DNA of 33,846 nucleotides from a virus: the IMG/VR virus record IMGVR_UViG_3300032053_000279, positions 1-33,846 of that record. One strand, 5' to 3'. Shown here piece after piece: positions 3,364 through 26,696 of the stretch (the stretch's first letter is position 1; every line of letters starts with the position of its first letter). The notes under the pieces are model-generated. The model was not told the origin of the DNA. It saw only the letters and a program-made list of their open reading frames with translations, and searched no databases. Both the position numbers and the translations under genes were made by a program.

Positions 3364-3370
3364 TAACTAC
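3364..3370 (-). promoter_or_regulatory. GTAGTTA element before tail sheath
   Basis: GTAGTTA followed by AAG lies 16 nt upstream of the sheath ATG and downstream of the previous gene's stop, so here it is not part of a coding sequence. It is one of eight exact minus-strand copies, all just upstream of start codons. It is proposed as a late promoter -10-like or translation-initiation element. Confidence 0.55.
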
Positions 3371-3380
3371 GCGCCTGACC

Positions 3381-4592
3381 TCACGAAAGTACGCGGCTCC
3401 ACGCGAACCGATACGTCAGCGTGAGTGTGTGCGTGTTGAGTTTTGATTGAGCCTCGCCGAACACAAAGACCATCGTCGTCCGATTCGACGCAAACCAGTT
3501 ATTGGGAGCGTGCGATCCGAAGCCTATCGAACGAATTGCTGTGCTGTTGCCGTTGCCCACTAGAAACACCCCGGTCTTGTCGACGTACCACGTGCCTGCG
3601 ACGTACGCCGCATTGGTGGTGGCAACGAACCAGTCCGTCAGCCCGTCGTGGCGATTGACCGTCGAACCAAACGAAGCTGGCGCGGACGCGTTGTCGGACA
3701 CGAAAACGCCGTCGCCGCTGCCGTCTGACGGCTCACTCGCCCAGACCGCGTTGTCGTAGCTGCCGGTAAACCCAGAGCCAGAGACAACCGACGCCATACC
3801 GATAAGCTGCCAGCACTCAACGCCAGTCGTGCCCACAGCGGGCGCAACCGGCCAGCCGTTGATGGTCGCCGTTCGGCTGACAGGTGACGCTGGTGTCAGG
3901 GTCAAGTCCAACTCGTAGGTCACGCGTAGCTGCTGGCCTGCGTTCACCGCGACCGGCGCTGCCAGAAGAATGCGGCTGAAGATGTTGGTGCTGCCACTGG
4001 CCGACCAGCCCAGCGCAGCCTCGGTGTAGTTGACGGTGCCAACTTCAGCCGTGAAATCGAAGGTACGCCGAAGCTTGTATACGTTCGAGGCCAGCGAGGT
4101 TTGGCAGTAGGGCGCTCCCGTCAGGTAGGTGTTGGTGCGCTTAACCTGCGTGCCTAACTGGGTCTGGTTCGTCCTGTATACAGTGAACTGGCCCGCCCCC
4201 ACAGAGGTGGAGTTGGACATCACCACAGTTGTCGGGTTGGTGACGCTGGAAATCTGCGACTCTTCGCCGGTATCCCACTTGATGACGTTGCCGCCGTCGA
4301 CAAGCGTGCTGGTGAATGTAAACGACCCGCCGCTGAGCGTGACTCCGGTGCCTACCTGCGTGGCGTCTGTCACACCGCTATCGTCAGATGTCGGTGTGAC
4401 GCCCGTGCCCGCAGAGCAGTAAAGCATGAGGTCAGCCCACAACGTCTGCGCCACCCGGTCCATGCCTTGGTTCAGGATAAGATTGTGCTGGCGCGGGTAT
4501 TCCTTGACGACCTTGCCGGTCGCCGCGTCGACCACGAAACACTGGACAAACCCTTCGGCTTGCTGGTGAAGCGTTTTTATGATCTGGCTCAT
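3381..4592 (-). CDS. Putative tail appendage or fibre-like structural protein
   Basis: A 403-residue protein rich in Gly, Ser, Thr, Asn and Val, with low charge and many short beta-type stretches, typical of phage fibres and decoration proteins. The first 50 residues are more conserved in style (GFVQCFVVDAATGKVVKEYP) and could anchor it to the virion. The ATG overlaps the stop of the upstream repeat-bearing protein (ATGA), so the two are probably made together. It lies upstream of the sheath gene. Function is inferred from composition and location, and no receptor-binding motif was seen. Confidence 0.55.
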   Translation of the reverse strand: MSQIIKTLHQQAEGFVQCFVVDAATGKVVKEYPRQHNLILNQGMDRVAQTLWADLMLYCSAGTGVTPTSDDSGVTDATQVGTGVTLSGGSFTFTSTLVDGGNVIKWDTGEESQISSVTNPTTVVMSNSTSVGAGQFTVYRTNQTQLGTQVKRTNTYLTGAPYCQTSLASNVYKLRRTFDFTAEVGTVNYTEAALGWSASGSTNIFSRILLAAPVAVNAGQQLRVTYELDLTLTPASPVSRTATINGWPVAPAVGTTGVECWQLIGMASVVSGSGFTGSYDNAVWASEPSDGSGDGVFVSDNASAPASFGSTVNRHDGLTDWFVATTNAAYVAGTWYVDKTGVFLVGNGNSTAIRSIGFGSHAPNNWFASNRTTMVFVFGEAQSKLNTHTLTLTYRFAWSRVLS

Positions 4593-6196
4593 ACGTACGT
4601 TCCGTTGTAAAAGCCCACGCTTGTCGTGCCAGCTTCGTAGTGCGTCCCGGCGCTCATGATTTTCGCCGCGTGCGTTCCGCGCTCGAAAGCTTGGCTCGTC
4701 GTGCCGCTTTCGTAATAACTACCAGCGTCGACAACGACAGCGGCGTACGTTCCGATTGAAAACACCATCGCGTTGGTTCCTGTCTCCGTGGTGGTGCCCG
4801 CCGAGACGATAGCGCTGGTGTGCGTGCCCGCCGCAAACGCCACAGCCGTCGTGCCAGCTTCATAGTACGTACCGGCGCTGACCGTGACCTGAAAATAGGT
4901 TCCACTGCTGAACGCGCCTGCTTCCCCCGCCTGCTCGACGTAGATGTACAAGTCCATCGACCCGACATGGAAAGCACTCCGGTTGGTGCCGCTGTCGGAG
5001 AGGGTTCCGCCGTCAACAACCACGATGGTTCCAGCCGAAACGTACGAGCCGTAGTAAAAGCCAACACTGTGGCTTCCCGACTCAGTGCCGGACGCTTCCG
5101 CAGGAGCCGGGGGCGACAAAACGGTGACGGTGCCTCCGCCGAATAATTCGGCTCCAGAGGACGGCAGGTAGCCCGGCGGCTCCAAGGGGCCGGGGAAGGT
5201 CACGATCAGCGACTGGAACAGAATCTCGTGGACTTGCGCGGCTTCGTCGCGGGCCACCCGCAGGGACGTGGCACAAGTGCCGGTCGGCGGCATCACGCTG
5301 ACCGCCTCCTTGTAGCTGATGACATCGCTCTGCGGATTCTCACGCAGGTCAATGGTTCCAACGAACTCAAACGCTGCGTCCACCGCCTCCGGGGGAGCGC
5401 TGCCTTCGCGCACGATGAGCTTCCAGAGCGCCGGGTAAATCTTGTAGTTCAGATCGAGGTCGTAGCCCTCCACGACCACGGTGAAGCTGGTGCGGTACTC
5501 GACATTCTTGCCATCCTCCGGCTCCTCTGGGGTCATGTTCTGGATGTCCCCGTCGATGTAAAGGCGGACCAGCTTGTTCCCGAAGCCGGGGTAGCTGACC
5601 TTGATCCACGTCTGAAGCTGGGGGCCGCCCGTGCGCCAGAACTCCCTGAACAACTGCGCCGTGTAGAACGCCTGCGTGTCGGGCCGGTTGCAGAAGTGGT
5701 CGATCTGAAAGCGGTAGTCAAACGCCATCGGCATCCGGCTCGTGGTGACCTCGGCCAGATTGCATCGGGTCAGGCCGGTCCCCTGCTGGTGCGTCCCGTA
5801 AAACGGCTCCAAGGCGTCGCTGACCGTCGGGTAGTTGATCCAGCGCATCCGGTGGATCGAGAAATTCTGGTACTGGCGCAGCTTCCACCCCTTCCTGTAT
5901 ACACTCATCACCGGATAGCGCACCGGCTGCGGGTAGGGCTGGTAGAGGGGGTTGCCTTTCTCGTCCTTGACATCCAGCAGGTATTGAAACGGGTTGTTGG
6001 CCTCCGACCAAAGTTTGCTGAACAAACTGAACGCGTCCATCGGGCTGCTGAAGACGACCGGCACGGGAACGCCCCAGCGGAGCGTGAAGACCTTGTTGAG
6101 CCAACGTTGGAGCGCCAACTCGTGGTACCTCATGCTGGTGCTGCTGAGAGCACCGGCACTGACATCCAAAGTCTGTCCTACCCAATCGTTGGCCAC
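4589..6196 (-). CDS. Tail/baseplate structural protein with C-terminal 25-residue repeats
   Basis: A 535-residue protein. Residues 1 to about 340 are a mixed domain rich in Trp and Tyr, including FREFWRTGGPQLQTWIKVSY and DLDLNYKIYPALWKLIV, without a family I can name. From about residue 385 to the end it has tandem repeats of about 25 residues built on the pattern SAGTYYEAGTTAVAFAAGT, probably a beta-solenoid or stalk. The start is GTG at 6196, chosen because the GTAATTA element lies 4 nt upstream. The first 19 bp overlap the end of the HNH gene. It is coupled by ATGA to the next structural gene. The virion assignment comes from context. Confidence 0.6.
   Translation of the reverse strand: MANDWVGQTLDVSAGALSSTSMRYHELALQRWLNKVFTLRWGVPVPVVFSSPMDAFSLFSKLWSEANNPFQYLLDVKDEKGNPLYQPYPQPVRYPVMSVYRKGWKLRQYQNFSIHRMRWINYPTVSDALEPFYGTHQQGTGLTRCNLAEVTTSRMPMAFDYRFQIDHFCNRPDTQAFYTAQLFREFWRTGGPQLQTWIKVSYPGFGNKLVRLYIDGDIQNMTPEEPEDGKNVEYRTSFTVVVEGYDLDLNYKIYPALWKLIVREGSAPPEAVDAAFEFVGTIDLRENPQSDVISYKEAVSVMPPTGTCATSLRVARDEAAQVHEILFQSLIVTFPGPLEPPGYLPSSGAELFGGGTVTVLSPPAPAEASGTESGSHSVGFYYGSYVSAGTIVVVDGGTLSDSGTNRSAFHVGSMDLYIYVEQAGEAGAFSSGTYFQVTVSAGTYYEAGTTAVAFAAGTHTSAIVSAGTTTETGTNAMVFSIGTYAAVVVDAGSYYESGTTSQAFERGTHAAKIMSAGTHYEAGTTSVGFYNGTYV
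4595..5050 (-). repeat. Coding tandem repeats, about 75 bp (25-residue) period
   Basis: The 3' end of the structural gene encodes repeated units with AGTxYExGTT and AFxxGTH elements. The last four are well preserved and the earlier ones are more degenerate. Codons differ between units, so the repeat is old and held at protein level rather than recently expanded. Confidence 0.7.
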
Positions 6197-6693
6197 ACCC
6201 TAATTACGTTCGGCTTTGCGAATTCACCGAACAGCCGAAGCGCGGCCTGATCATAGGCCGCCGCAGCTCTTTGCTCGTCAACGAAATAGCCGAGATGGTG
6301 TCTGGAACGCTGGAAATGAATGTACGCCTGCCACTTTCCAAGGTCTTTTCTCCAAGTCACGCCTTTGAACCGGCTCGTGCAGCCTATCTGCTTATGCTGA
6401 TTTTGAAGATTTTGACCGGATGTCGCTGCTCTTAGGTTTTGGCGTTGGTTATCCAGGCCATCCCCATTCTTGTGATCAACTTTCGTGGTCGCGCTCGTCA
6501 CGCTTAGAATTTCACGGTGCATTTGGACCATTCGCCTGCGCCCAATACCAACGCTCTTGTTACGCGCCGCGTACCAGATCGTTCGGCATTTACGTGTGGC
6601 CTTTACGGCAAACCAGTTAAATTTTGAAAGTTCTTCAAAAGCGTCATCATCAACGACAGCGCTCTTGCCTTGGGTCAATGGAATAGTCCGCAC
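6178..6693 (-). CDS. HNH homing endonuclease with AP2 DNA-binding domain
   Basis: A free-standing homing endonuclease that would nick or cut DNA lacking the element. From the GTG at 6693 it has 171 residues. It opens with MRTIPLTQGKSAVVDD, a typical N-terminus of this family. An HNH core (VQMHREIL, KVDHKNGDGLDNQRQNLR) follows, then an AP2-type domain (FKGVTWRKDLGKWQAYI to AAAAYDQAALRLFGEFA). The frame stays open upstream of the GTG to 6840, but that part crosses a hairpin and lacks family similarity, so it was left out. GC content looks lower than in neighbouring genes. It sits between unrelated structural genes, as expected for an invading element. Confidence 0.9.
   Translation of the reverse strand: MRTIPLTQGKSAVVDDDAFEELSKFNWFAVKATRKCRTIWYAARNKSVGIGRRRMVQMHREILSVTSATTKVDHKNGDGLDNQRQNLRAATSGQNLQNQHKQIGCTSRFKGVTWRKDLGKWQAYIHFQRSRHHLGYFVDEQRAAAAYDQAALRLFGEFAKPNVIRVWPTIG
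6201..6207 (-). promoter_or_regulatory. GTAATTA variant element inside the HNH gene end
   Basis: GTAATTA (one mismatch to GTAGTTA) lies 4 nt before the GTG start of the downstream structural gene, followed by GGGT. It falls within the last codons of the HNH gene, so the endonuclease coding sequence accommodates the element. Confidence 0.4.
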
Positions 6694-6730
6694 AGGGTAA
6701 AGAACAGCGTGACTGAGGCGGAAGGAGAGA

Positions 6731-6765
6731 CAACGAGCACGGTGCGTCAGCAACCGTGCTCGTTG
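6731..6765 (-). terminator. Strong hairpin between the SH3-like gene and the HNH gene
   Basis: A perfect 13-bp inverted repeat, CAACGAGCACGGT with its complement, encloses a 9-nt loop. It lies just after the stop of the 6788 gene on the minus strand. The downstream side is pyrimidine-rich (TCTCTCCTTCC) without a pure U run, so it may be a terminator, an RNA-stabilising hairpin, or part of the inserted HNH element. Confidence 0.5.
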
Positions 6766-6787
6766 CGGGGAGGGCGGGGTAAATTGG

Positions 6788-7045
6788 TTAGACGGGAACC
6801 AGCAACGAGGTCTGCATTTTGACCGTCGTGCCGTTTTCAAGTTCCACGTCGCAGAAGCCCGGATTCGAGTCGCTGATGGCTTTGACCTTGCCCTTGGCCC
6901 CGGTCATTCCTGAGATCGGGTCATCGACCACCGCGACCGTTTGACCGGACGTGATGTCTTCACCAAGAATCTGGTTCACAGCGCTGCGCACATAGTCCTT
7001 GCCGCCAGCCTCGACAGACTCCGCGATGATTTTCTTGATATTCAT
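6788..7045 (-). CDS. Small protein with processed-type N-terminus and SH3/KOW-like C-terminus
   Basis: 85 residues. The N-terminus MNIKKIIAESVEAGG contains I-A-E followed by Ser, matching the (I/L)-x-E cleavage motif of T4-type prohead proteases. Residues 33-85 form a compact beta-rich segment (GQTVAVVDDP, GAKGKVKAI, CDVELENGTTVKM, SLLVPV) that resembles a KOW/SH3 barrel. A GTAGTTA element lies 6 nt before the ATG and supplies the TAA stop of the upstream gene. This could be an internal head protein or connector component, but no named family was recognised. Confidence 0.65.
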   Translation of the reverse strand: MNIKKIIAESVEAGGKDYVRSAVNQILGEDITSGQTVAVVDDPISGMTGAKGKVKAISDSNPGFCDVELENGTTVKMQTSLLVPV

Positions 7046-7050: not shown

Positions 7051-7401
7051 TTAACTACTGCTTGGGTCCACTAGAATTGCTGCAAAAACAACTTCGTCAA
7101 CTTTTTCCCACGGTTCGTACCAGTCTGATCCGCGCCGCAACTCAGTCATGAACGATTCTGACGAACCGGCTACCTTAACTACGAGCCTTCCGTTCACAAA
7201 GCTGAGGCTCACGCTCTCAGACATCCTCCGGGCTTTTTCCTCGATGCGTTTCAAGCGCTCCGGCAGATCATCCACTGGCTTTTTGCGCAGCGCACCGAAC
7301 CCGGTCATGAGCGCTTCGACCACCTGTTCCCGCTGATCTCGTTCGCGCAGACGCTTTTCCATAACGCCGTCGACGGCCTCGTTGATGGCGTCGGCGATCA
7401 T
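7051..7401 (-). CDS. Hypothetical protein, helical then beta
   Basis: 116 residues. The first 65 are strongly helical and charged (EKRLRERDQREQVVEALM, ERLKRIEEKARRM). The rest is beta-rich (SLSFVNGRLVVKV) and ends in SSS. The ATG overlaps the upstream stop (ATGA at 7398-7401), and its own TAA is formed from the GTAGTTA element of the next gene. This tight packing supports a real gene. It is probably a structural or assembly protein of the neck or tail, judged only by its neighbours. Confidence 0.6.
   Translation of the reverse strand: MIADAINEAVDGVMEKRLRERDQREQVVEALMTGFGALRKKPVDDLPERLKRIEEKARRMSESVSLSFVNGRLVVKVAGSSESFMTELRRGSDWYEPWEKVDEVVFAAILVDPSSS
7052..7058 (-). promoter_or_regulatory. 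GTAGTTA element before the 7045 gene
   Basis: Exact GTAGTTA, then AAGCAC, then ATG, a gap of 6 nt. It overlaps the end of the upstream gene (AGT AGT TAA), so in that gene it encodes Ser-Ser-stop. Confidence 0.5.
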
Positions 7402-7949
7402 ACTTCAGGCAGAGGACGCGTTTGTATACGTTCTGCTGGCGGCGGGTTGCCGGGGTCCACCAACGGGCGGGCGTCGCCGTCGGCAGGGATGCAGGTTTCG
7501 CAGACCAGCCCCAGCCAGACGTTGGTCTGGTGCCAGTACGAGGTCGGCTCCAAGACCACGCTGACGAGCATGTTCCGGTAGCCGTTGAAGTACATGATGT
7601 CCCCGCGCATCGGAAAATACTCGAACTTCTCCAAGAGCAGGTTGGCCATCCAGACCTTGTACTTCTGCTGGGGCACGATCCCCACGCGGGTCAAGCGCCA
7701 GTCCGGGCGCTCCGCCTGAATGATGGCGGGCATCTCGATAACCCTCGAAAATACAGTTCTTTCGTCCAATGACACGTGCCAAAGGTCATCGTACTTTTCT
7801 GACCGCCGGTCGACCTCGTAGAACTTGGGGTAGGGCCGGGGAGACATCGTGCGGACGTACTCGGAGTGGATGCCCAGCGCTGTCTGGGTGTCTGCCAGCC
7901 GGTAGACCTCCGGGTCGTAGTGCCACTCTTTGCGCTCGTTAAACGTCAC
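7398..7949 (-). CDS. Putative neck/head-tail connector-type structural protein
   Basis: 183 residues. An aromatic-rich N-terminus (WHYDPEVYRLADTQ) is followed by KFYEVDRRSEKYDDLWHVSLDERTVFSR in two conserved-looking blocks, then FPMRGDIMYFNGYRNML and YWHQTNVWLGLVC. The pattern of a small beta-rich protein with ordered loops resembles neck or completion proteins of large myoviruses, but I cannot name the family with certainty. The start is GTG at 7949, 4 nt after an ATAGTTA element. It diverges from the plus-strand gene at 7969 and is ATGA-coupled to the next minus-strand gene. Confidence 0.55.
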   Translation of the reverse strand: MTFNERKEWHYDPEVYRLADTQTALGIHSEYVRTMSPRPYPKFYEVDRRSEKYDDLWHVSLDERTVFSRVIEMPAIIQAERPDWRLTRVGIVPQQKYKVWMANLLLEKFEYFPMRGDIMYFNGYRNMLVSVVLEPTSYWHQTNVWLGLVCETCIPADGDARPLVDPGNPPPAERIQTRPLPEV

Positions 7950-7953: not shown

Positions 7954-7960
7954 TAACTAT
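7954..7960 (-). promoter_or_regulatory. ATAGTTA variant element in divergent gap
   Basis: ATAGTTA, CGGT, then GTG. This 19-bp gap separates divergent genes, so the element is not explained by an upstream stop codon. It shares the 4-nt spacing and GTG start with the copies at 6201, 21010 and 26690. Confidence 0.4.
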
Positions 7961-10099: not shown

Positions 10100-10564
10100 T
10101 TACTCGACCTCGTGGCTCTTTTTGCGTTCCTTCTCCTCGTCCGCTTCGGTTTCGTCTTCCTCCTCGTGAGGTTCGCCCTCGTCGTGAGGTTCGCCTTCCG
10201 GCGGGCCGCCTTCGTCTTCGATGTCGGAGGGAGGCTCATCGGGCATCGGCATTCCTTCAACGCCTTCAGGTCCAACCAGGGGTCCACCCGGCCCGCCCAT
10301 GCCCCCGGCACCGGGAGGAAGTTCTTCTACCGGCGCGACTGCGGCGGCAATCTGTTCCAGCGAGATGGACATTTTGCGCAGAAGGCTAAGCGCCGTGTCA
10401 CCTTCTGTGTCGGCTCCGACAGCACTGTCGCTGACCGGCGGCTCGCTCGGTTCGAGCGTTTCTCCGCCAATGTCGTCAAGCGGTGGTGCCCCAGAACCCA
10501 GTTGGCTGAGTTCGTCAGCCTCCATTTCCTCGACAAGTTTGATGGCTTCTTTGATGTTGCTCAT
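10100..10564 (-). CDS. Possible internal translation product, acidic 154-residue protein
   Basis: Within the SWIM gene, an in-frame ATG at 10564 begins MSNIKEAIKLVEEMEADEL. The style matches the N-termini of other genes here, with L-V-E near residue 12. A GTAGTTA element lies 17 nt upstream. The product would be strongly acidic (Glu/Asp-rich with Gly/Pro stretches), unlike the basic upstream half. This is an alternative or additional product, not a separate locus. Confidence 0.4.
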   Translation of the reverse strand: MSNIKEAIKLVEEMEADELSQLGSGAPPLDDIGGETLEPSEPPVSDSAVGADTEGDTALSLLRKMSISLEQIAAAVAPVEELPPGAGGMGGPGGPLVGPEGVEGMPMPDEPPSDIEDEGGPPEGEPHDEGEPHEEEDETEADEEKERKKSHEVE

Positions 10565-11653
10565 ATTGTCACCGTTCGCATTAACTACACTCTCCAAAAT
10601 CAAATCACGCAGGGGTCGGCAGAGGTACGCTTCTTCTGGGCGCACCCAGCCGTACGCGCCGGGCTGCATCGGCTTAACCACACGGTTGCCGATCACGCGC
10701 TTGGGTTTGGAAATTGGTTTTTGCTGAATCCACGTGTACGGTCCAGCAGCCATGCCTTTTGGTATCGCCGTTCTTGCTGCCTGACGCGGCGGACCCGGCT
10801 TCTTCGGCCCGGTCCACGTGTAAGGTTTCTTCGTGGATGTTGGCGTTGGCGCGGCGGGCGGCATCCCGCGACCGCGCTGACCCGGAGGCTTGGCCAGTTC
10901 CGGTTGCGGAAGCGGTTCTGGCTTGATGTTCTTCAAGTCCGCCGTCGACTTGGGCTGCTGCTCCTTGGGCATACGCCCCGGAGCGTTTACACTCGCAGGC
11001 TTCGGCCCCTTGCGCACCGGCTGAGGCGCTTGTGGGGGCGCGACTGGAAGCTGGCCAAGGTTGCGCTGCTCACGGCGGCGACGTAGCTCTGCTTCCTTGG
11101 CTTTGGCCGCCCGCATTTGCCCCTCAAAATCCGTCCAGCGCTTGGTGGCGTACTTGGTCAGCCGGTCCAACTTGTAGGCCGTATCCGGCTCGTCGCCCTC
11201 GAAAGACGAGAGCATTCCGTAGAGATACTGCCGGGTAGCCAGAATGTGTTTACAAAGACCGGGCTTGCCCTTGGGGTTGGTGATCTTGGGCGCTCTATTC
11301 CATGCTTGGTTGAGCGAGTTGCCACCCACGACGCTGCTCTGGCGCTGCTTGTTCGTCCACGCCCAGCGATAGCGGAAATCGGGGCACGTGCAGTCCACCA
11401 AGCACTCCAAGTGCTGGAGCGGGACGTTCTTGGGGTTCTTGTTCTTCGGTTTGAAAAACTTCACGTAACCCCGGTGCCGGAGTCCGGTCGTGCTGGGGTT
11501 GGCCTTGAAGTTGAAGATGTAGTAGACCGCGTCCTGATAGCTGTCGATCTCCAGCGGCGGACCCTTGACTGTAAACGAACGGTAAACCCGTTTCGGCTCA
11601 CTGATCCGAAAGAGCTTGTCGAAGGTCAGGCGCTCGCAGAGGCAAACGGACAT
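10100..11653 (-). CDS. SWIM zinc-finger protein fused to an acidic domain
   Basis: 517 residues. Residues about 25-150 form a compact domain whose zinc ligands fit the SWIM pattern CxC...CxH (Cys88, Cys90, Cys134, His136), a fold used for DNA or protein binding. Residues 175-345 are basic and proline-rich with three Tyr-x-Trp motifs (PYTW, PYTW, AYGW). At 351-355 the sequence L-I-L-E-S fits a prohead protease site. Met364 begins a very acidic 154-residue part that could also be translated separately. The gene starts 1 nt after the PDZ gene stop. It is probably an internal head or DNA-associated protein, which is inference. Confidence 0.7.
   Translation of the reverse strand: MSVCLCERLTFDKLFRISEPKRVYRSFTVKGPPLEIDSYQDAVYYIFNFKANPSTTGLRHRGYVKFFKPKNKNPKNVPLQHLECLVDCTCPDFRYRWAWTNKQRQSSVVGGNSLNQAWNRAPKITNPKGKPGLCKHILATRQYLYGMLSSFEGDEPDTAYKLDRLTKYATKRWTDFEGQMRAAKAKEAELRRRREQRNLGQLPVAPPQAPQPVRKGPKPASVNAPGRMPKEQQPKSTADLKNIKPEPLPQPELAKPPGQRGRGMPPAAPTPTSTKKPYTWTGPKKPGPPRQAARTAIPKGMAAGPYTWIQQKPISKPKRVIGNRVVKPMQPGAYGWVRPEEAYLCRPLRDLILESVVNANGDNMSNIKEAIKLVEEMEADELSQLGSGAPPLDDIGGETLEPSEPPVSDSAVGADTEGDTALSLLRKMSISLEQIAAAVAPVEELPPGAGGMGGPGGPLVGPEGVEGMPMPDEPPSDIEDEGGPPEGEPHDEGEPHEEEDETEADEEKERKKSHEVE
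10582..10588 (-). promoter_or_regulatory. In-frame GTAGTTA element inside the SWIM gene
   Basis: Exact GTAGTTA, encoding Val-Val followed by the first base of an Asn codon, lies 17 nt before the internal ATG at 10564. Its presence inside an open frame supports a function independent of stop codons. Confidence 0.45.
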
Positions 11654-11654: not shown

Positions 11655-12737
11655 TCAGGTCAGCGAACTGACGTTGGCACCTTGGTTGCCCGTCTCCCGC
11701 GCCGGGGTCTTGGCGTTGGGTATCAGCGGGTGCGGCTTGCTGGGCTGCGCCATCATCTTCGCGAGCCTGCCTTGCAGGTTGAGCTTGGGGCGCTGGCCGG
11801 GCTTGGCGGAGGCGGCCTGTACTTCTGCGGCGGGGATGGTCATTTCTGGTCCTTGCTGTTGAGTTTGTTTGGGCTTGGGTTCCGGCTTAATCGGAATCCA
11901 CATGTCCTTGTCGCCCCGGTGTACTCGAAACGAGATCGGGTACTTCGGGTCGGCTTTGCGCAGCACGTACGACAAGTGATTCGTGTTGTACACGTAGAAC
12001 GGCCCAATCGGCTCACCGCCGTCTGCGGGGGCAAACTTTCCCGTCTGAATGATGATGTCTCCAGCCCGCAAACCCGCCTGCGCCGCCGGGCCGTTGGGGA
12101 TGACCTCCATGACCTGAATCCCCTGCTCACTGTTCATGTCGTACTGAAAGCCTACGTTGACCGGAGCGTTCAAGGGCATCGCCTCGCGCTCCGAGTAACC
12201 GACACCGTGTGCGGGCGCGTTAAAGCCTTCTTCCTCCGGGTCAATCTTGCCCAACTGCTGAGTAGGCACGCTGCGCTGCTCCTTGGCCGTCTGCTCCTGC
12301 GCCTGCTCCTCCCTCTCTGCGTCCTTGCTGCCGTACAGCACCCTGTCGACGTGTAACCGTTTTGGGCTGTCGGTGGTGTGCTTGCGATAGGCCACGGCAT
12401 CGTGCTTTTCGAGGCCCAGCATTTTCTCCGCTTTTTCGGCACCCTCGGGTGTGGTGCGCACTGGAACACTTCGACCGATGACTTCCACGTTACCGGGATG
12501 GTGCTTGATGAGAAAGGTGTAGCCCTTGTCAACAAGAGCGTCGAGCATCCGCACGTCGTCCGGCGTGCCTTTGGGGATGATCTTGAAGTGGCGCAGATGG
12601 ATGATGGCTTGATCGACGCTCTTGGCCACATACCCGTCGCTGGGCAGCCCCGGCCCAAAAATGTATACACCAGTCTGGTCGCCTGCCGACATCTCGTCGG
12701 CTTCGAGCAGCAGGTTGACGATCTCGCGAGCGTTCAT
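11655..12737 (-). CDS. PDZ-domain protein with prohead-protease-type N-terminus
   Basis: 360 residues from the ATG at 12737. The frame extends upstream, but the start was set here because a GTAGTTA element lies 5 nt before it and the gp46-like gene diverges from 12771. The N-terminus MNAREIVNLLLEADEM contains L-L-E before Ala, a candidate cleavage site. Residues about 193-286 are a PDZ domain: GIQVMEVIPNGPAAQAG, the carboxylate-loop-like GLRAGDIII, and the closing strand ISFRVHRG. No protease catalytic triad is present, so it is a binding module rather than a DegP-type enzyme. Residues 20-120 form an unrecognised domain, and the C-terminus is basic and low-complexity. Confidence 0.78.
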   Translation of the reverse strand: MNAREIVNLLLEADEMSAGDQTGVYIFGPGLPSDGYVAKSVDQAIIHLRHFKIIPKGTPDDVRMLDALVDKGYTFLIKHHPGNVEVIGRSVPVRTTPEGAEKAEKMLGLEKHDAVAYRKHTTDSPKRLHVDRVLYGSKDAEREEQAQEQTAKEQRSVPTQQLGKIDPEEEGFNAPAHGVGYSEREAMPLNAPVNVGFQYDMNSEQGIQVMEVIPNGPAAQAGLRAGDIIIQTGKFAPADGGEPIGPFYVYNTNHLSYVLRKADPKYPISFRVHRGDKDMWIPIKPEPKPKQTQQQGPEMTIPAAEVQAASAKPGQRPKLNLQGRLAKMMAQPSKPHPLIPNAKTPARETGNQGANVSSLT

Positions 12738-12742
12738 CGCTT

Positions 12743-12749
12743 TAACTAC
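12743..12749 (-). promoter_or_regulatory. GTAGTTA element before the PDZ gene
   Basis: Exact GTAGTTA, AAGCG, then ATG. It lies in the 33-bp gap between divergent genes, so no upstream minus-strand stop codon explains it. Confidence 0.55.
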
Positions 12750-17958: not shown

Positions 17959-17985
17959 TTGACAGACTGCCTGACTTTGTATACG
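17959..17985 (+). promoter_or_regulatory. Sigma70-type promoter, TTGACA-15-TATACG
   Basis: TTGACA at 17959-17964 and TATACG at 17980-17985, preceded by TTG as a partial extended -10. The 15-bp spacer is shorter than the usual 17 bp but equals that of the promoter at 18871. The likely start site is within about 10 nt of the ATG at 17994, giving a very short leader. Confidence 0.65.
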
Positions 17986-18305: not shown

Positions 18306-18793
18306 CCGTCCAGCATCGCCTTCACCACCTGCTCCGGGGTCCGGCGAACTGAATCCTTGATGGCGCTGGGCACACGTCCTACCGCGTCCTTGCTTTTCAT
18401 CTTGCTACCCGGCTTCTCCCCAGCCAGTTCCGACCGCAGTTTGGCGGAGGTCTTCCACTTGGCATCCGTGCCGCCCGTGGTCTTGAACGCCTGCTTGCTG
18501 GTCATCCGGGCGAACTTCAGCCCGGTCTTGCCCAGTCCCAGCTTGGGCGCGTCGTCCCGGCCTTCCATGAGGCGGTCGCGCTCAAACATGGCGCGGGCGG
18601 TCAAGCGCTCACCCACCTTTTGGGGCAGCCCCTTGCGCTTGGTGGCGGCAAACTTGTGCAGTTCGCCGGTCCCTTTCATGGATTTGAACATGTGCTTGGA
18701 CGCGCCCTTGAGCTTGCTCTTGGGCAGGTCGCCTTTCTCGACGGCGTGGGCAATCCCCGCCGCCGCTTGTTGTGCTTTCGATGTCGCAGGCAT
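18296..18793 (-). CDS. Small basic DUF3008-like protein
   Basis: 165 residues, strongly basic. The first 60 residues (MPATSKAQQAAAGIAHAV, LKGASKHMFKSMK, FAATKRKGLPQKV) match the short phage and bacterial family known as DUF3008, of unknown function. The rest is a longer Lys/Arg-rich extension (TSKQAFKTTGG, KMKSKDAVGRVP) not typical of that family. A GTAGTTA element lies 27 nt upstream in the divergent gap. The charge suggests nucleic-acid contact, perhaps as a packaged protein. Confidence 0.65.
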   Translation of the reverse strand: MPATSKAQQAAAGIAHAVEKGDLPKSKLKGASKHMFKSMKGTGELHKFAATKRKGLPQKVGERLTARAMFERDRLMEGRDDAPKLGLGKTGLKFARMTSKQAFKTTGGTDAKWKTSAKLRSELAGEKPGSKMKSKDAVGRVPSAIKDSVRRTPEQVVKAMLDGYQ

Positions 18794-18820: not shown

Positions 18821-18827
18821 TAACTAC
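18821..18827 (-). promoter_or_regulatory. GTAGTTA element before the DUF3008-like gene
   Basis: Exact GTAGTTA followed by GG, 27 nt before the ATG at 18793. It is in the 168-bp intergenic region, free of coding sequence and opposite the plus-strand promoter at 18871. Confidence 0.5.
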
Positions 18828-19846: not shown

Positions 19847-20056
19847 ATGGCTGAAGAAACCCCAGCGCCAAAGCCCAAGCCGACCAAGCTCACGCAGGTC
19901 AGCTACGGGATGACTGTAAACACTGGGAACTACGAAACCGTCAGGTTTGACCTGACGGCTCAAGTAGCGCCGGACGAAGACTGGCGTGACGTTCTGGAAT
20001 CGCTCCGGCGCAAGTCGCGCAAGCTCAAGGAGCGAATCCAGAGCGAAGGGGACTAG
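19847..20056 (+). CDS. Small conserved-type phage protein
   Basis: 69 residues: a Lys/Pro/Ala-rich start (EETPAPKPKPTK), a beta-hairpin core (VSYGMTVNTGNYETVRFDLT) and a C-terminal charged helix (WRDVLESLRRKSRKLKERI). The core resembles a small protein seen in many phages, without known function. A good Shine-Dalgarno sequence (AAGGGG) precedes the ATG, unlike most genes here. It ends in a CTAG shared with the convergent gene. It may be reached by read-through of the 19783 terminator. Confidence 0.65.
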   Translation: MAEETPAPKPKPTKLTQVSYGMTVNTGNYETVRFDLTAQVAPDEDWRDVLESLRRKSRKLKERIQSEGD

Positions 20057-20307
20057 GTGTTGTTGACGCTGCGCGGGGCACCGGCCACGTTGGGGCCGCA
20101 GTTGATGCCATAACGGTTCATTCCCTTCGGAATGCCCGCAGCGCCAAATCCCGCCCTCAGCGGTGCCGCCTGCATCGAGCCGTCAAAATCCAGCCCGGTG
20201 TAGGGAATCGCTGCGTTCAGCACGGCTTGGTTGGAGGACCGGCCTGCGCCTGCGGCGTTGGGACCGTTGTCGTATCTCGCGTTCGGATCGTTGTTCAGAT
20301 CAGCCAT
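20053..20307 (-). CDS. Hypothetical Gly/Asn/Ala-rich protein with internal repeat
   Basis: 84 residues with low charge. Two copies of the pattern GPN(A/V)AGA(G/P)RS(S/V)N lie near residues 15-26 and 71-82. Between them is NAAIPYTGLDFDGSM. A GGAG Shine-Dalgarno site precedes the ATG, and a GTAGTTA element lies 27 nt upstream. It is possibly a minor virion or decoration protein, without family recognition. Confidence 0.5.
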   Translation of the reverse strand: MADLNNDPNARYDNGPNAAGAGRSSNQAVLNAAIPYTGLDFDGSMQAAPLRAGFGAAGIPKGMNRYGINCGPNVAGAPRSVNNT

Positions 20308-20334: not shown

Positions 20335-20341
20335 TAACTAC
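20335..20341 (-). promoter_or_regulatory. GTAGTTA element before the 20307 gene
   Basis: Exact GTAGTTA, whose TAG is the stop codon of the upstream gene, 27 nt before the next ATG. Confidence 0.45.
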
Positions 20342-20604: not shown

Positions 20605-20820
20605 TCAAGCATCCAGCAAAGCGGTCACAAGCTGCTCTGAAACATGGCGCAGCTTGCCGCCTCGATTGGTAAAACCAGCTTTTTTGATCCAGCGCTTAAT
20701 CGTGCTCGGCGATCTTCCTGCTGACTTTGAGATTTCCCGATCAGTTTGACCCGCCTGACGGCAGCGCACCGCCGCCGCTGTGTTGCAGATGTCGCTGAAT
20801 TTGAGTTTTGCTTCGTTCAT
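20605..20820 (-). CDS. Small helix-turn-helix DNA-binding protein
   Basis: 71 residues from the ATG at 20820, which overlaps the upstream stop (ATGA). A homeodomain-like HTH is clear: DREISKSAGRSPSTIKRWIK, with the recognition helix around SPSTIKRWIKKAG. It is basic and cysteine-poor, with a short helical C-terminus. It resembles the HTH of Hin-type resolvases or transposase N-termini but has no catalytic domain. It may be a phage regulator or a terminase-small-subunit-like protein, though its small size and location leave this open. Confidence 0.65.
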   Translation of the reverse strand: MNEAKLKFSDICNTAAAVRCRQAGQTDREISKSAGRSPSTIKRWIKKAGFTNRGGKLRHVSEQLVTALLDA

Positions 20821-21005
20821 GATTGGTGAGTGTTTACACCGTAAGGTCCGTGCCCTAGCGGTGTGTCCGTGCCGGTGGTGATGACCTCGTAGTGCGGCGC
20901 GTAGGGCCACGGCTCCGTGCCGTGGGTAAAGATCACACGCACGTTAGGCTCTGCCGGGATTTTCTGCCCGGCGCTCGCGATCTGCCAAGGAGTTGCTTCA
21001 GCCAC
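20817..21005 (-). CDS. Hypothetical protein, paralogue A of a TPWQ/NTHQ pair
   Basis: 62 residues beginning MAEATPWQIASAGQKIP and ending TGTDTPLGHGPYGVNTHQS, related at both ends to the 20338-20604 product. The start is GTG at 21005, 4 nt after a GTAGTTA element. The small HTH gene lies between the two paralogues, with ATGA coupling here. Function unknown. Confidence 0.5.
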   Translation of the reverse strand: MAEATPWQIASAGQKIPAEPNVRVIFTHGTEPWPYAPHYEVITTGTDTPLGHGPYGVNTHQS

Positions 21006-21008: not shown

Positions 21009-21197
21009 TTAACTACCGACGCGCTGGATGCGCACACACTGCTCGGCATTGATGTCGAGGGCACAGCCGGGGAGGTACCGCAGCACAGACTCGACGGCTC
21101 GCCGTCGGTGGTTCCCTTCGTGGTTCGTCATCTCGCCCCACACCGTGATAGTGCGCTTGTCGGCAGCTATGACCTTGACCCAGAAACGGAAGCTCAT
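21009..21197 (-). CDS. Hypothetical small protein after the capsid terminator
   Basis: 62 residues with a beta-helix-beta look (FRFWVKVIAADKRTITVWGE, RRRAVESVLRYLPG, QCVRIQRV). It starts 7 nt beyond the terminator hairpin following the capsid gene, so it needs read-through or another promoter. Its TAA is formed within the GTAGTTA element of the next gene. Probably real given its packing, but unidentified. Confidence 0.5.
   Translation of the reverse strand: MSFRFWVKVIAADKRTITVWGEMTNHEGNHRRRAVESVLRYLPGCALDINAEQCVRIQRVGS
21010..21016 (-). promoter_or_regulatory. GTAGTTA element before the 21005 gene
   Basis: Exact GTAGTTA, AGAC, then a GTG start, a 4-nt spacing. It overlaps the upstream stop (GGT AGT TAA). 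Confidence 0.5.
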
Positions 21198-21255: not shown

Positions 21256-22731
21256 TTAGCCGATGGTCTGGCCGAAGGCGGTCGGGCTGTTCTGCACGAG
21301 GCCACGGCAGTACATCTTCGAGTTGACCATCTTCCGGGCGAAGCTGGTCGCAAACCCGCGCTGGTGGATGAAGTCCGGCAGGACGACATCGGGCGTGGTG
21401 TACAGTTTTTGGTACTCGGCCAACACGTACCCGGTCGTGAGGAACTGATCGCCCTTGTGGCCGACCAAGAACTCGTTCGTGGGATAGTGCGGGTCAGCGA
21501 AGACCTTCTTGTTGCCCAAGTCGCCGATGTAGGTGATGCCCTGCATCTGCACCCGGTTGTTCTTGGGTACGAACTGCGGCAGCGTCGCAACGACGGTCGC
21601 CGCTTGGAGGCCAAGCAGCAGCCAGTTGCCCGCAACCATGTTCGTCGCGCCGAAGATGAAGTTGCTCGCCGTCTCGAACGCGTCGATGATGGAGAACTTG
21701 TGCGTCTGGTAGTTCACGCCGGTCGGCGCGATGGCATCCCAGACCACGAAACCTGCATCGGCCTTGGCACGCAGGTCGAAGATGACCTGACGGTGCTTCT
21801 GGTACTGCAACGCATTCGTCAGGGCGTTGAGCAACACGCTCTCCGCCTTGATGTTGTACATTGCTTGCAGGTTTTGATCGGCTTCTTCCGACCAGAGCGT
21901 CTTCAGCTTCATCACCTTCGCGGTGACGGGGGTGCTGGAGAGCTTCATCTCGTAATCCTGAATGGCGAGGTTGCCTTCAGAATTGAACGCGTACGTCACG
22001 GTGTACGCAGCGGTCTGATACGCGACGCCGCCCGCCGTGAAGTCCACGGTGCCAGCGCCAGTACCTTGGTAGGTGATGGTGCCGACTGCCGCGTTGGTCG
22101 CCACGTTGACGATGACGCCGTTGCCGTCGTCAGCCACGTTCGCCGCGCCTACCGTGCCGCTAAAGGTGCCGGGGCGGATCGGGGTCCACTCCAGAACCAT
22201 GACGCCGGAACCATTGGTGGTGCCAGCCTCGTCTTGGATGACTTCGTCGCCGTCGTCATCGCGGTCCACTGCGCCTTGCAGGGCACGCCACATGGGCGCT
22301 CCAGCAGGCGTGCGGCCCTTGCGGCGACCGGTCACGATGTCCATGTACACGATCTGCGACACGGGTCCGGCCATCGGTTGCAGGGCAACCAACTGGTCGA
22401 TCACGTCGTTCTCGGACATGTTCGCGATGATCGGGAAAATCCACTTGTCGAACGTTCCCAGCGACGTTGTGCGCGTCACTTCATCGAGCCGCCCGAAGCG
22501 GTTGCGGCAGTTCTCCAGCATGATCGCTGCGACTGCGCGTTTGTGCTCAGGCATGTGTTGGACGAATTCCTTCCAGCCCTTCGCTTCCCAGAGGCCGCGA
22601 GAGTTCTTTTCAGGAATGCCCAATGATGTTTCAGCGAGGCGATAGCCCCACTCCAGAACGTCCATGAAACGGGAGATGTGCCCGCCATCGGACGCCAGTA
22701 CCGGTCTTCCACTTTCAGTCAGGATAACCAT
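21256..22731 (-). CDS. Major capsid protein (T4 gp23-like)
   Basis: 491 residues, the main building block of the head shell. The conserved gp23-type core is visible: RTTSLGTFDKWIFPIIANM (87-105), then QLVALQPMAGPVSQIVYM. A later helical region (TKVMKLKTLWSEEADQNLQ) leads to the peripheral domain, and the C-terminus has VGHKGDQFLTTGYVLAEYQ. Roughly residues 185-250 are a Gly/Ala/Thr/Val-rich beta insertion. The N-terminus contains L-T-E followed by Ser, a possible protease site, though T4 gp23 is cut much further in. The gene follows the protease-scaffold gene, as in T4-type head clusters. Confidence 0.93.
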   Translation of the reverse strand: MVILTESGRPVLASDGGHISRFMDVLEWGYRLAETSLGIPEKNSRGLWEAKGWKEFVQHMPEHKRAVAAIMLENCRNRFGRLDEVTRTTSLGTFDKWIFPIIANMSENDVIDQLVALQPMAGPVSQIVYMDIVTGRRKGRTPAGAPMWRALQGAVDRDDDGDEVIQDEAGTTNGSGVMVLEWTPIRPGTFSGTVGAANVADDGNGVIVNVATNAAVGTITYQGTGAGTVDFTAGGVAYQTAAYTVTYAFNSEGNLAIQDYEMKLSSTPVTAKVMKLKTLWSEEADQNLQAMYNIKAESVLLNALTNALQYQKHRQVIFDLRAKADAGFVVWDAIAPTGVNYQTHKFSIIDAFETASNFIFGATNMVAGNWLLLGLQAATVVATLPQFVPKNNRVQMQGITYIGDLGNKKVFADPHYPTNEFLVGHKGDQFLTTGYVLAEYQKLYTTPDVVLPDFIHQRGFATSFARKMVNSKMYCRGLVQNSPTAFGQTIG

Positions 22732-22770: not shown

Positions 22771-23715
22771 TTACTTGGTGGCGGGTGCGGGTGCTCCGCT
22801 CAGACGACGCACCAGTTCCACGGACTCGTTGATTGCCCGGACAGACAGGTCAACGCGTTCGGTTTTCAGCACTTTGGCCTCAGCAACGGGCTGAGCGCCT
22901 TCTTTCTTGCCCTCGGTCACGGATTCGTGTGCAACGGCTCCGGGTTCCTTGGCAACCTTGTCGGCATCAGGGCTGCCAGCGCCCTTCTGCTTCTCGTCCT
23001 TGATGGCTTCTTTGCCGGGCTGCTCGCCTTCCTTCGGCTGGGTGAGCTTGCCTTTCTCGGCTTCTTCCTCTTGGACAGTCTTCTTGGGTTTGCCTTCCAG
23101 CTTCTCGCGGATGGCAACGATGTGACGGAGACGGGACGCTTCCTTCAGCGACTTCTGAATCTCCGGTGTCTGGGCCTTGTCCTTGAACTCAAGGACGATC
23201 AGGCGACGACCCAACTCGGTCACGTCTTCGTGATAACGGTTGGCCATGAGGTCGAGAGCTTCGCAGGAAGTGTCGAAGTCCTTTTCCAAGGTCACGGACT
23301 TCTGCTTGCGGCTCTCGGCGATACGCTGCCAGCCTTGGCCGCGACGGGTCAGTTCTTCGAGCATCTTGACCCGGCTGCCATCAGCCTTCAGCGACTCACC
23401 CAGCTTCTTTTTGAAGGTGACGGCGGTAGAAGCGACCGCGTTGATGACCCGCATGAGCTTTTCGTTCTGCTCACCGAGACGTTTTGCCTCTTTGGCAGGC
23501 AACTTGATGGTTTCGGTGAAGCCCTTGGACACGTCGTCGAGGGTGTTGTGGAGCTTCTGCGCTTCCCAAGACCGCTTGGGATCGGCAGCCGCCCACTCTG
23601 CAACATTCTGGTGCAGTTCCTCGACTTGTGTCATGGACTCAGCGAACCGTGTCGGCTTGGCTGAATCGGCACTCCGTAGAGAGTCAATCCGGCTTTTGAT
23701 CTCGTTCAGTTCCAT
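22771..23715 (-). CDS. Possible nested scaffold product from an internal start
   Basis: An in-frame ATG at 23715 (Met249 of the fusion) begins MELNEIKSRIDSLRSAD. An A-rich stretch (AACAAAAACAACAAGACT) precedes it, similar to leaders of other genes in this window. It sits at the linker-scaffold border, so internal initiation would give a 314-residue scaffold without the protease, as with lambda C and Nu3. No direct proof. Confidence 0.4.
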   Translation of the reverse strand: MELNEIKSRIDSLRSADSAKPTRFAESMTQVEELHQNVAEWAAADPKRSWEAQKLHNTLDDVSKGFTETIKLPAKEAKRLGEQNEKLMRVINAVASTAVTFKKKLGESLKADGSRVKMLEELTRRGQGWQRIAESRKQKSVTLEKDFDTSCEALDLMANRYHEDVTELGRRLIVLEFKDKAQTPEIQKSLKEASRLRHIVAIREKLEGKPKKTVQEEEAEKGKLTQPKEGEQPGKEAIKDEKQKGAGSPDADKVAKEPGAVAHESVTEGKKEGAQPVAEAKVLKTERVDLSVRAINESVELVRRLSGAPAPATK

Positions 23716-24459
23716 AGTCTTGTTGTTTTTGTTGGTTTCGCTGGCAGGTTTGGCCACACCAGTTGAAGGTGACGATTCCTTCAAAACGACAGAGGTTGCT
23801 GCGGTCGTCGGGGCCGCAGGTTTTTGCACAGATTCAGCTTGGGGGTTCGGGGCGACTGGTTCAGCCATCTGTGCGACGGTTGAACTCCGGTTGGGGGTTA
23901 GCTCCGCCTGCTCAAAGCTGGGCTTGATTACCACGTCCCAGCCTTCGCAAACGTAGTCCTCTTGGACATCATCCACTCCATCCGTCGCCTTGGACAACGA
24001 GCCGTAGCCACGGCTTGATACCAGCGGGTTGTAGCCTCCTTCGATCAACGCCTTCAGCTTCCTGCCTTCCTCGGTGTCCAGCAGAGCGATGTCGCCCACG
24101 ACCTCATAGACCTTCTGGCCCTTGGCGTCGGTGGACTCGATCATCTCGGCGTTGGTGACGTGGTGGGAGATCGGGGAGAGAAGGGTTACGATACCGTCCT
24201 TGGGATGTTCCAGAAGACCAAAAGCCGCGTTCCGCTTGATAGACTCCTTCAAGATGGAACCCGGTTGCAGATTCTTCTCCCACACTCTCCGACCGTAACG
24301 GCGGTTGTTGCCGTTAACGCAGTCACAAACGCTGAAGCGTCCGGGTATGCGCGTAAAGCTACTCCCGTTCGGGCGACTTTCAGCGACAGGAGTTTTGGTC
24401 CTGTCGACAATGAAAGGGAAAGCGCCCGTCACGCCTTCAATCAGGTATTGTCGCATACG
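22771..24459 (-). CDS. Prohead protease fused to scaffold domain (gp21/gp22-like)
   Basis: 562 residues from the ATG at 24459. The frame is open to 24510, but the extra codons run into a hairpin and MRQYLIEGVTGAFPF is a natural start. Residues 35-180 are a gp21-type serine protease: NGNNRRYGRRVWEKNL, the catalytic His region GLLEHP (His84), and LVSSRGYGSL with Ser147 or Ser148 as nucleophile. Residues 190-248 are a Pro/Ala linker. Residues 249-562 are a charged helical scaffold (many Glu/Lys heptads) with an acidic C-terminal linker. The protease would digest the scaffold during head maturation. L-I-E at residues 5-7 fits self-cleavage. Confidence 0.88.
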   Translation of the reverse strand, partial: RMRQYLIEGVTGAFPFIVDRTKTPVAESRPNGSSFTRIPGRFSVCDCVNGNNRRYGRRVWEKNLQPGSILKESIKRNAAFGLLEHPKDGIVTLLSPISHHVTNAEMIESTDAKGQKVYEVVGDIALLDTEEGRKLKALIEGGYNPLVSSRGYGSLSKATDGVDDVQEDYVCEGWDVVIKPSFEQAELTPNRSSTVAQMAEPVAPNPQAESVQKPAAPTTAATSVVLKESSPSTGVAKPASETNKNNKTMELNEIKSRIDSLRSADSAKPTRFAESMTQVEELHQNVAEWAAADPKRSWEAQKLHNTLDDVSKGFTETIKLPAKEAKRLGEQNEKLMRVINAVASTAVTFKKKLGESLKADGSRVKMLEELTRRGQGWQRIAESRKQKSVTLEKDFDTSCEALDLMANRYHEDVTELGRRLIVLEFKDKAQTPEIQKSLKEASRLRHIVAIREKLEGKPKKTVQEEEAEKGKLTQPKEGEQPGKEAIKDEKQKGAGSPDADKVAKEPGAVAHESVTEGKKEGAQPVAEAKVLKTERVDLSVRAINESVELVRRLSGAPAPATK

Positions 24460-24507
24460 CAGTTTACCGCGATATACGTAAAAAACCTGAGAGCACGGTG
24501 CTGTAGA

Positions 24508-24535
24508 CAATCGTCTTTCGCACCTAAGACGATTG
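24508..24535 (-). promoter_or_regulatory. Hairpin upstream of the protease gene
   Basis: A perfect 10-bp inverted repeat, CAATCGTCTT with its complement, has an 8-nt loop. It lies between the stop of the 24563 gene and the protease start. On the minus strand a T6 run occurs about 20 nt downstream. It could be a weak terminator, an RNA-processing site or a translation-control hairpin. Confidence 0.4.
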
Positions 24536-25559: not shown

Positions 25560-26281
25560 CCGTTGAACCGACGGAAGGCGCTCATGATCTTCGACCCGTC
25601 CCCGATGGGCGCTGGGTCTGGCATGGCGCTGCCGCCGTCTTTGGCCGCGACCAGCAGGTTGGCGGCCTTGGCGGCTGCTTCCTCTGCGACCGGGCTGACG
25701 CCCATCATCGCCGCAGCCTGTTCCTCGGTCACGGCGGTTCCGGCGTTCTGGAAGCGTTCCAGTTCACCCTGACCCTGCTCCGCTGCGGGCTTGGAGGGCC
25801 GGTTCTTGCCCAAGAGCACGTCCATCGCCTTGGCGGCCACATCCCCAACCGGTGACTGGGACGGTTGCGCCCGCTCCAAGTCGGCGGCAGTGAACTTCTC
25901 CGGGCCGGTGGCACCGGGAACTTGAGAGGGATCAATGGGCTGGGTGGACTGCGGGGTCACGTCAGGTGCGGTCAAGGCCGAGTACGGTGTGAGGTACTTC
26001 TCCTTGTCCGCCTGCGGGTGCGACGGCTCCTGTACCACGTCCTTGGTGGGGCGCAGCGGCTTGCCGACGGTCATCTCCGACGGGTCCACAGGCTCGGCAT
26101 CCTTGGGAATGACTTCTTCCTTCTCATCTGCTTCACCGACCATGCGCCGCACGCTATCGTCAGGACCATCCTCGTCGGCACCCCGGCGGTTGCGGCTGCG
26201 AAAGGTTTTTCGAGGAACCCCCGCAAGCACGGGGACCACGTCGTCTTCGCCCAACAAGCGGCTCATCATCGTATTCCTCAT
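25556..26281 (-). CDS. Candidate prohead core protein, RLLGE type
   Basis: 241 residues, low-complexity, Pro/Ala/Glu-rich and probably disordered. The N-terminus MRNTMMSRLLGEDDVV has L-G-E before Asp, matching the T4-type cleavage motif and resembling the next gene upstream (RLLGEA). The C-terminal third is Ala-rich helical (AEEAAAKAANLLVAAKDGG) and ends SKIMSAFRRFNG. It is ATGA-coupled on both sides. It may be an internal core or packaged protein. Sequence composition alone cannot prove this. Confidence 0.55.
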   Translation of the reverse strand: MRNTMMSRLLGEDDVVPVLAGVPRKTFRSRNRRGADEDGPDDSVRRMVGEADEKEEVIPKDAEPVDPSEMTVGKPLRPTKDVVQEPSHPQADKEKYLTPYSALTAPDVTPQSTQPIDPSQVPGATGPEKFTAADLERAQPSQSPVGDVAAKAMDVLLGKNRPSKPAAEQGQGELERFQNAGTAVTEEQAAAMMGVSPVAEEAAAKAANLLVAAKDGGSAMPDPAPIGDGSKIMSAFRRFNG

Positions 26282-26685
26282 ATCACGTTTTCTTCCTCGG
26301 CATTGCCTGCGTGTTGAAGCGCACTCTGGTACTCGGGGGGTGTCGTGGGTGGCTCGATACCTTCGGTGTCCGCCAATTCGTCGAGCATCTGGCCTAACAT
26401 GCGACCCTGCTCATGTCCGATGGCAAAAAGCATATCCACGAAATCCGCGTAGCTGGCCTCTGTAAACATCAGCCGGGCAGCTACCGCCATGTGGTCACCG
26501 GCCTGCCACTGCCGGATCAACTCCTGCATGTTGGGCGCGGCGGTCGGCGGAGCTTGGGGTTCCGCTTCCGGGGGCGCGTCGGCTTCCTTTGAAGGCTCCA
26601 GTTCAGTAGGCGTCGCTAGTTCTGTGGCGGCGTCCTGCTCGGCAGCTTCACCCAGTAACCGCTTCAAATACGGGTTCGATGTCAC
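26278..26685 (-). CDS. Candidate prohead core protein, RLLGE type
   Basis: 135 residues. The N-terminus MTSNPYLKRLLGEAAEQ carries L-G-E before Ala, followed by an acidic Pro/Ala-rich linker. A helical segment follows (MQELIRQWQAGDHMAVAARLM, DMLFAIGHEQGRMLGQML). The start is GTG at 26685, 4 nt after a GTAGTTA element, and the stop overlaps the next ATG. The similar start of the downstream protein suggests the same processing. Function inferred. Confidence 0.55.
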   Translation of the reverse strand: MTSNPYLKRLLGEAAEQDAATELATPTELEPSKEADAPPEAEPQAPPTAAPNMQELIRQWQAGDHMAVAARLMFTEASYADFVDMLFAIGHEQGRMLGQMLDELADTEGIEPPTTPPEYQSALQHAGNAEEENVI

Positions 26686-26689
26686 ACCC

Positions 26690-26696
26690 TAACTAC
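26690..26696 (-). promoter_or_regulatory. GTAGTTA element before the head cluster
   Basis: Exact GTAGTTA, GGGT, then a GTG start. Its TAG is the stop codon of the glycosyltransferase gene. It is the first copy upstream of the run of genes leading to the protease and the major capsid protein, so it could drive head-gene expression. Confidence 0.55.

Follow-up and report, generated by a model that had tools for sequence, protein, structure and literature searches.

A GTAGTTA box beside start codons as a probable late promoter of leaderless messages in uncultivated T4-like myoviruses

The DNA analyzed here, positions 1 to 33,846 of the IMG/VR virus record IMGVR_UViG_3300032053_000279 (hereafter the window), is a 33.8-kb fragment of a T4-like myovirus genome, in which homologues of the gp23 capsid, gp18 sheath and gp21 protease were all found. 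The heptamer GTAGTTA recurs on its minus strand, shortly before a set of genes, and an earlier note on the same DNA had left it between a late promoter and an initiation element. The late promoter is much the better supported of the two, by a pyrimidine-purine (YR) step that keeps to one distance from the motif, a spacing edge at −11, longer leaders that are conserved, and the use of the motif for virion genes. Thus, GTAGTTA, or more fully GTANTTA-ARGYR, is very probably a −10-type late promoter box for leaderless or near-leaderless mRNAs, and a protein encoded in the window, here called SigB, is its likeliest reader. The viruses that carry the box are a lineage of uncultivated T4-like myoviruses.

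Across the whole window, GTAGTTA occurs ten times on the minus strand and not once on the plus strand, as compared to an expectation of 0.76 for both strands together (standard deviation 0.97; at most 4 in any of 100 dinucleotide shuffles). When the strand was simulated with Markov models of order 2 to 4, the mean count was 0.26–0.8 and the highest 5 (order 4 alone: mean 0.8, maximum 5), and no other 7-mer of the strand is as over-represented (p about 4e-10 before correction). The eight exact copies listed in the earlier note, its two variants (GTAATTA at 6201–6207 and ATAGTTA at 7954–7960), their distances of 4–27 nt ahead of start codons and the lack of a plus-strand copy are all borne out (Table 1); the total, however, is ten, as the copies at 4716–4722 and 7176–7182 had been overlooked. 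Both of these lie within reading frames, which would suit a chance or codon-usage artefact, and the first of them is possibly due to chance; the second could be an upstream tandem promoter or conserved coding. As an account of the motif as a whole, such an artefact has next to no probability, given the excess over 0.76, the empty opposite strand, the start-codon-specific position and the recurrence in nine relatives, whose counts refute it.

These relatives were collected as contigs via the capsid protein. From eleven viral records, long stretches were analyzed, and G003 and G005, which duplicate G002 and G004, respectively, were left out of the final counts. The box recurs in nine non-duplicate related records. 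The motif search that the earlier note had called for, over the window and its relatives, gave counts far above expectation rather than equal to it. The same strand bias is repeated in close relatives (e.g. 36/11, 18/2, 19/6 and 11/0), and in several records GTAGTTA is among the strongest strand-specific 7-mers when compared with a second-order Markov expectation. Furthermore, in the seven closest records, which include one overlapping pair from the same virus, 111 copies lie no more than 60 nt ahead of a called start, as compared to an expectation of 5.7.

Where these upstream regions lack an exact box, TATTTA and TAATTA are enriched at the same position. The fourth base is therefore free, and the box is better written GTANTTA. 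The motif of the earlier note is thus real and recurrent, but one of its bases is not fixed, and its leaderless geometry had gone unremarked. On its 3′ side the box is followed by A, R, G, Y and R, giving the consensus GTANTTA-ARGYR. Base frequencies over 164 copies show the box and this 3′ extension only, with no conserved −35 element; as in T4-type late promoters, there is a single box at the −10 position.

The distance from box to start codon is sharply distributed. Offsets are counted here from the first base of the box, such that a start codon at offset 11 places the box at −11. In ten non-duplicate records, this is the commonest spacing of the exact box (47 of 191 copies, against 0.11 expected per position), followed by −12 to −16, whereas almost no copy lies at −10 to −1. 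The variants GTA[ACT]TTA also peak at −11 (29 copies), and [ACT]TAGTTA does likewise. The geometry is specific to the clade: a start codon stands at offset 11 for 22–50% of the GTANTTA copies in nine of ten clade records and for 7% in G012, the most divergent of them, as opposed to 0–3.5% in T4, Listeria phage LIS04, Maribacter phage Colly_1 and distant kin.

Transcription starts are typically marked by a YR step. So that the box signal could be told apart from that of the start codon, deduplicated copies were sorted into classes of start-codon distance. The step was found at offsets 10/11 in 37/53 copies with the start at offsets 13–16, in 19/28 with the start at offset 17 or beyond and in 17/28 with no start, that is, in 73/109 overall, compared with a background of 25% (p=5e-20). 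Since the step keeps its distance from the box wherever the start codon lies, and since the spacing ends abruptly at −11, a promoter is favoured, and we regard that reading as strongly supported.

The competing explanation is that GTAGTTA is a translation-initiation element, namely a non-Shine-Dalgarno site for the ribosome or another protein, placed 4–9 nt before the start in longer mRNAs. The usual gap of 4–9 nt does resemble that of a ribosome-binding site, and these phages lack Shine-Dalgarno sequences. We nevertheless consider it improbable. First, the spacing is not bell-shaped: the shortest distance is the commonest, with an abrupt edge at −11, and the YR step does not follow the start codon. 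Second, GTG starts are common at offset 11 only (35 GTG and 22 ATG, as compared to 8/75 at offsets 12–16), and offset 11 is the position where the box itself wants a purine. Third, the box is found on a subset of genes only. Fourth, longer leaders are kept in boxed relatives, with 15–16 nt from box to ATG for the sheath gene and 17–23 nt for a nested gene described below; such conservation agrees with a promoter and sits poorly with a ribosome-binding site. A complementarity of GUAGUUA to internal parts of 16S rRNA was also weighed and set aside.

In T4, the textbook case of late transcription, messages carry leaders and often Shine-Dalgarno sites. In the T4 late region, Shine-Dalgarno cores were counted in 25/42 genes, and late boxes end mostly 24–28 nt ahead of the ATG. 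By the same kind of count, cores before genes in the present records are at or near the level of control stretches in nearly all cases, with a modest excess in two, and in the 132 copies with close spacing (offsets 11–16) the stretch from box to start never holds a core.

Returning to the late promoter, we propose that a phage sigma factor, most likely SigB, would bring RNA polymerase to the box without a −35 element. RNA synthesis would then begin at the purine 4 nt past the box, which would span about −11 to −5, and start codons would lie at this +1 purine or just downstream of it. From the YR step together with the spacing edge, transcription is predicted to start at the start codon or within a few nucleotides of it, and the box geometry is best read as leaderless initiation. 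Late mRNAs would thus have no leader or one of a few nucleotides (11–24 nt or more in a minority) and would be translated without a Shine-Dalgarno site.

Endonuclease cleavage of longer late mRNAs at the box would likewise put near-leaderless 5′ ends close to start codons and at a fixed distance from the motif. It is, to our judgment, very improbable, because copies in divergent gaps, e.g. 12743–12749, would still need a promoter supplied upstream, and because the motif resembles the late box of T4, is correctly placed and has a sigma-fold protein conserved alongside. The SbcC-like gene facing this box probably starts near 12771, the point where the match to the SbcC profile sets in and where the shorter homologue in G004 starts; the box would therefore be in a divergent gap and not antisense within a gene.

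The genes led by the box agree with a late promoter. In G011, these include the portal, sheath, baseplate J and tail-fibre genes; thus, as in T4, virion structural genes carry the box, and replication genes are led by another one. No late box was found on or upstream of the sigma genes in the window. Both the use for virion genes and this absence fit a promoter. In addition, the box marks a nested gene (10100–10564, minus strand, 154 amino acids), which is in frame with the 3′ part of the open reading frame (ORF) 10100–11653 and has its own box and internal ATG; the arrangement is conserved in five relatives (G011, G004, G003, G001 and G014).

As for the reader, the earlier note had pointed to a gp55-like sigma factor in the window. 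The fold, gene context and collinearity of SigB uphold this in part; on the other hand, there is no significant sequence match to gp55, and the sigma-like genes are two, not one. They overlap, and all records searched have the SigA-SigB pair conserved, with the exception of G007, where the contig breaks off close to the site at which the pair would be expected. SigB is interrupted by a LAGLIDADG intein (about residues 101–457, about 30651–31721) that is absent from the relatives searched. A SigB homologue was modelled from seven sequences, and all 50 of the 50 Foldseek matches listed for the model are sigma factors. Residues 18–119 align with region 2 of sigmaE bound to −10 DNA (Z 11.5, 91 residues aligned, 2.2 Å), and a Sigma70_r2 match is weak and below the cut-off (E=0.025). 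A sigma region 2 fold, the −10-recognition domain, is therefore well supported by modelling, and the pairing of SigB with the box is plausible. Neither SigB nor SigA had a tblastn match among 50,697 phage records, even with the threshold relaxed to E=1, and the sigma profiles found no sigma factor in a sequence search of the PDB.

Alternatively, the reader of the late promoter might be SigA, or else the host polymerase aided by a phage activator. SigA adjoins SigB in nearly all relatives and has a weaker sigma layout over residues 33–272, and a second class of box, GTTCTWA, also needs a reader. Against this, the −10-recognition domain is better supported in SigB, whose alignment with gp55, weak and not significant as it is, runs collinear over conserved helices. 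We therefore take SigA or the host to be a doubtful candidate, though one of some weight, and keep SigB as the preferred one. SigA has a separate C-terminal domain that resembles YjbR proteins; a MotA-like assignment of this domain was rejected, as the weak Foldseek match was outscored by the YjbR-like fold.

Several observations weigh against the proposal of a SigB-read, leaderless late promoter. No start codon lies within 45 nt for 28/194 copies, and gene starts in the relatives come from a simple home-made caller. The transcription start would be about 1 nt nearer the box than in T4. Among ten large boxed proteins tested, six have no PHROG match and one is radical-SAM-like, so that few identified genes stand behind the label ‘late’. 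The model of SigB has modest confidence values (predicted local distance difference test, pLDDT, 65.5 overall and 75–89 over residues 21–110; predicted template modelling score, pTM, 0.35), its Foldseek E-values are weak (best 0.014), and its hhalign alignment with gp55 profiles, collinear over ~98 columns, is not significant (E=0.15, probability 0.4%, shallow alignments). Lastly, promoter identity, start base, late timing and the SigB-box pairing are all deduced from sequence.

In position and in its T/A bases, the box falls into line with the late boxes known from T4 and Aeh1. T4 late promoters have 8-bp boxes at −13 to −6 and no −35 (PMC2988020, PMC1524935); the box is TATAAATA, whereas that of Aeh1, CTAAATA, starts at −12 and is paired with a diverged gp55 (PMC1524935). 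The T4 system (TATAAATA; gp55/gp33/gp45) shares with the present one a −10-only box, the lack of a −35, virion genes and a phage sigma factor, and Aeh1 shares a divergent T4-family late box with a divergent gp55 (PMC1524935). T and A are shared by all three boxes at matching positions (PMC1524935). GTANTTA retains the T/A of TATAAATA at two TA positions only, a divergence comparable to that of CTAAATA, which itself differs from GTANTTA at three of seven bases; the accessible part of the Aeh1 report mentions no leaderless geometry (PMC1524935). Unlike T4, the present lineage has a conserved ARGYR extension, usually 4–9 nt from box to start (24–28 in T4) and no Shine-Dalgarno sites.

Leaderless messages are known elsewhere. 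In Deinococcus-Thermus, a −10 motif, TANNNT, directly before the ORF yields leaderless mRNA and can be mistaken for a ribosome-binding site (PMC12340547). That motif, however, is cellular and lies 6–7 bp before the ORF, whereas GTANTTA ends 4 nt ahead of the start and belongs to a single phage lineage. Middle and late mRNAs of Thermus phage phiYS40 are leaderless; the portion of that report available gives no late box of the GTANTTA type, and the system is unrelated as far as tested (PMC3594737). The late promoters of phiKZ (TATG) and AR9 (AACA-N6-TA/G) are also short boxes near the start site, but are read by phage-encoded multisubunit polymerases, and AR9 leaders are 26–491 nt long (PMC5312081). 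The combination of a T4-type late box with leaderless geometry was not found in the open-licence literature searched, where GTAGTTA itself returned primers and unrelated matches.

In a lineage devoid of Shine-Dalgarno sites, a T4-type architecture has apparently come to adjoin the start codon. If this is true, it would show how a phage sigma/box pair adapts to leaderless translation. The reading predicts 5′ ends 4 nt after GTANTTA, and the box would allow late genes, nested genes and true start codons to be annotated in these uncultivated genomes. In addition, two diverged phage sigma factors with candidate boxes provide material for specificity studies.

Two further promoter types were found. 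The box GTTCTWA has a hard edge of its own at −12. Genes behind it encode helicases, DnaB-like helicases and the SbcC-like protein; of ten large products tested, six belong to DNA metabolism. In a third arrangement, TTGAC, some 35 nt ahead of the start, is followed within that interval by GTATAC or GTTTAC, and the genes concerned encode an ATP-dependent protease, a phosphohydrolase and unknowns; this type looks early. Judging from the functions of the led genes, TTGAC/GTATAC, GTTCTWA and GTANTTA would be the early, middle and late classes. They may mostly start messages at or beside the start codon, each phage-specific box having its own adjacent sigma factor; we put the chance of this at slightly less than even, and if true, the scheme would be a leaderless T4-type transcription cascade. 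The Terminase_6N and DNA_pol_B Pfam models had no match in the relatives and were hence unusable as gene-class markers.

Table 1. Features of the window, with coordinates and strand
Feature	Position	Strand	Remarks
Late box GTAGTTA	3364–3370	−	ATG 16 nt downstream, tail sheath 1068–3347; spacing conserved in relatives
GTAGTTA, in-gene copy	4716–4722	−	Inside gene 4589–6196; YR present; no start codon nearby
Variant box GTAATTA	6201–6207	−	GTG 4 nt downstream, gene 4589–6196
Late box GTAGTTA	7052–7058	−	ATG 6 nt downstream, gene 6788–7045
GTAGTTA, in-gene copy	7176–7182	−	Inside gene 7051–7401; YR present; arrangement conserved in relatives
Variant box ATAGTTA	7954–7960	−	GTG 4 nt downstream, gene 7398–7949
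Late box GTAGTTA	10582–10588	−	Inside ORF 10100–11653; leads internal ATG of nested gene 10100–10564
Late box GTAGTTA	12743–12749	−	ATG 5 nt downstream, gene 11655–12737; divergent gap to SbcC-like gene
Late box GTAGTTA	18821–18827	−	ATG 27 nt downstream, gene 18296–18793; sole window box without YR step
Late box GTAGTTA	20335–20341	−	ATG 27 nt downstream, gene 20053–20307; GGAG in leader
Late box GTAGTTA	21010–21016	−	GTG 4 nt downstream, gene 20817–21005, 62 amino acids
Late box GTAGTTA	26690–26696	−	GTG 4 nt downstream, gene 26278–26685; YR present
Second-class box GTTCTAA	19835–19841	+	ATG at offset 12, gene 19847–20056
Sigma70-like promoter TTGAC...GTATAC	17959–17985	+	ATG about 35 nt from TTGAC
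Gene for gp18-like tail sheath protein, led by a late box	1068–3347	−	phrog_23, E=1.3e-40
SbcC-like gene	within 12378–14720	+	
Major capsid/head protein (gp23-like)	21256–22731	−	phrog_138, E=1.7e-28; no exact box directly at start
Prohead protease	22771–24510		
SigA, second sigma-like protein	28460–29983	−	Overlaps SigB; extra C-terminal domain
SigB, sigma-factor-fold protein with LAGLIDADG intein	29940–32021	−	Best candidate late-box reader

Separately from these promoters, the palindrome TGTWWACA (TGTATACA, TGTTTACA, TGTAAACA) is strongly over-represented, with 18 sites in the window (for example at 4175, 8283, 12662, 19822 and 29656) and in all relatives. Many sites are within genes and some overlap early-type promoters; the palindrome is possibly an operator or another protein-binding site.

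Regarding the host, a contig of a metagenome-assembled genome labelled Flavobacteriales has a capsid gene that is 78% identical, but the contig is 3.8 kb long and might be a binning error, and this assignment was rejected. We also take TTGAC −35 elements and a GC content of 50–60% not to suggest a Bacteroidetes host.

Frequently, the first residues of boxed proteins form a short peptide that ends in (L/I/M)(L/I/V/M)E (32/191, as compared to 84/1453 others, p=1e-6), exemplified by the boxed gene 11655–12737 (MNAREIVNLLLEADE). These peptides resemble the capsid-targeting peptides cut by the T4 head protease. A boxed gene of G014 opens with a peptide similar to that of the boxed gene 20817–21005. 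Between two boxed genes, an HNH endonuclease-like ORF (6178–6840, minus strand) overlaps the boxed gene 4589–6196. Finally, an array of 9-nt repeats at 32312–32518, in minus-strand coding sequence, encodes a lysine-proline-rich (K-V/A-P) stretch of ORF 31993–32787.

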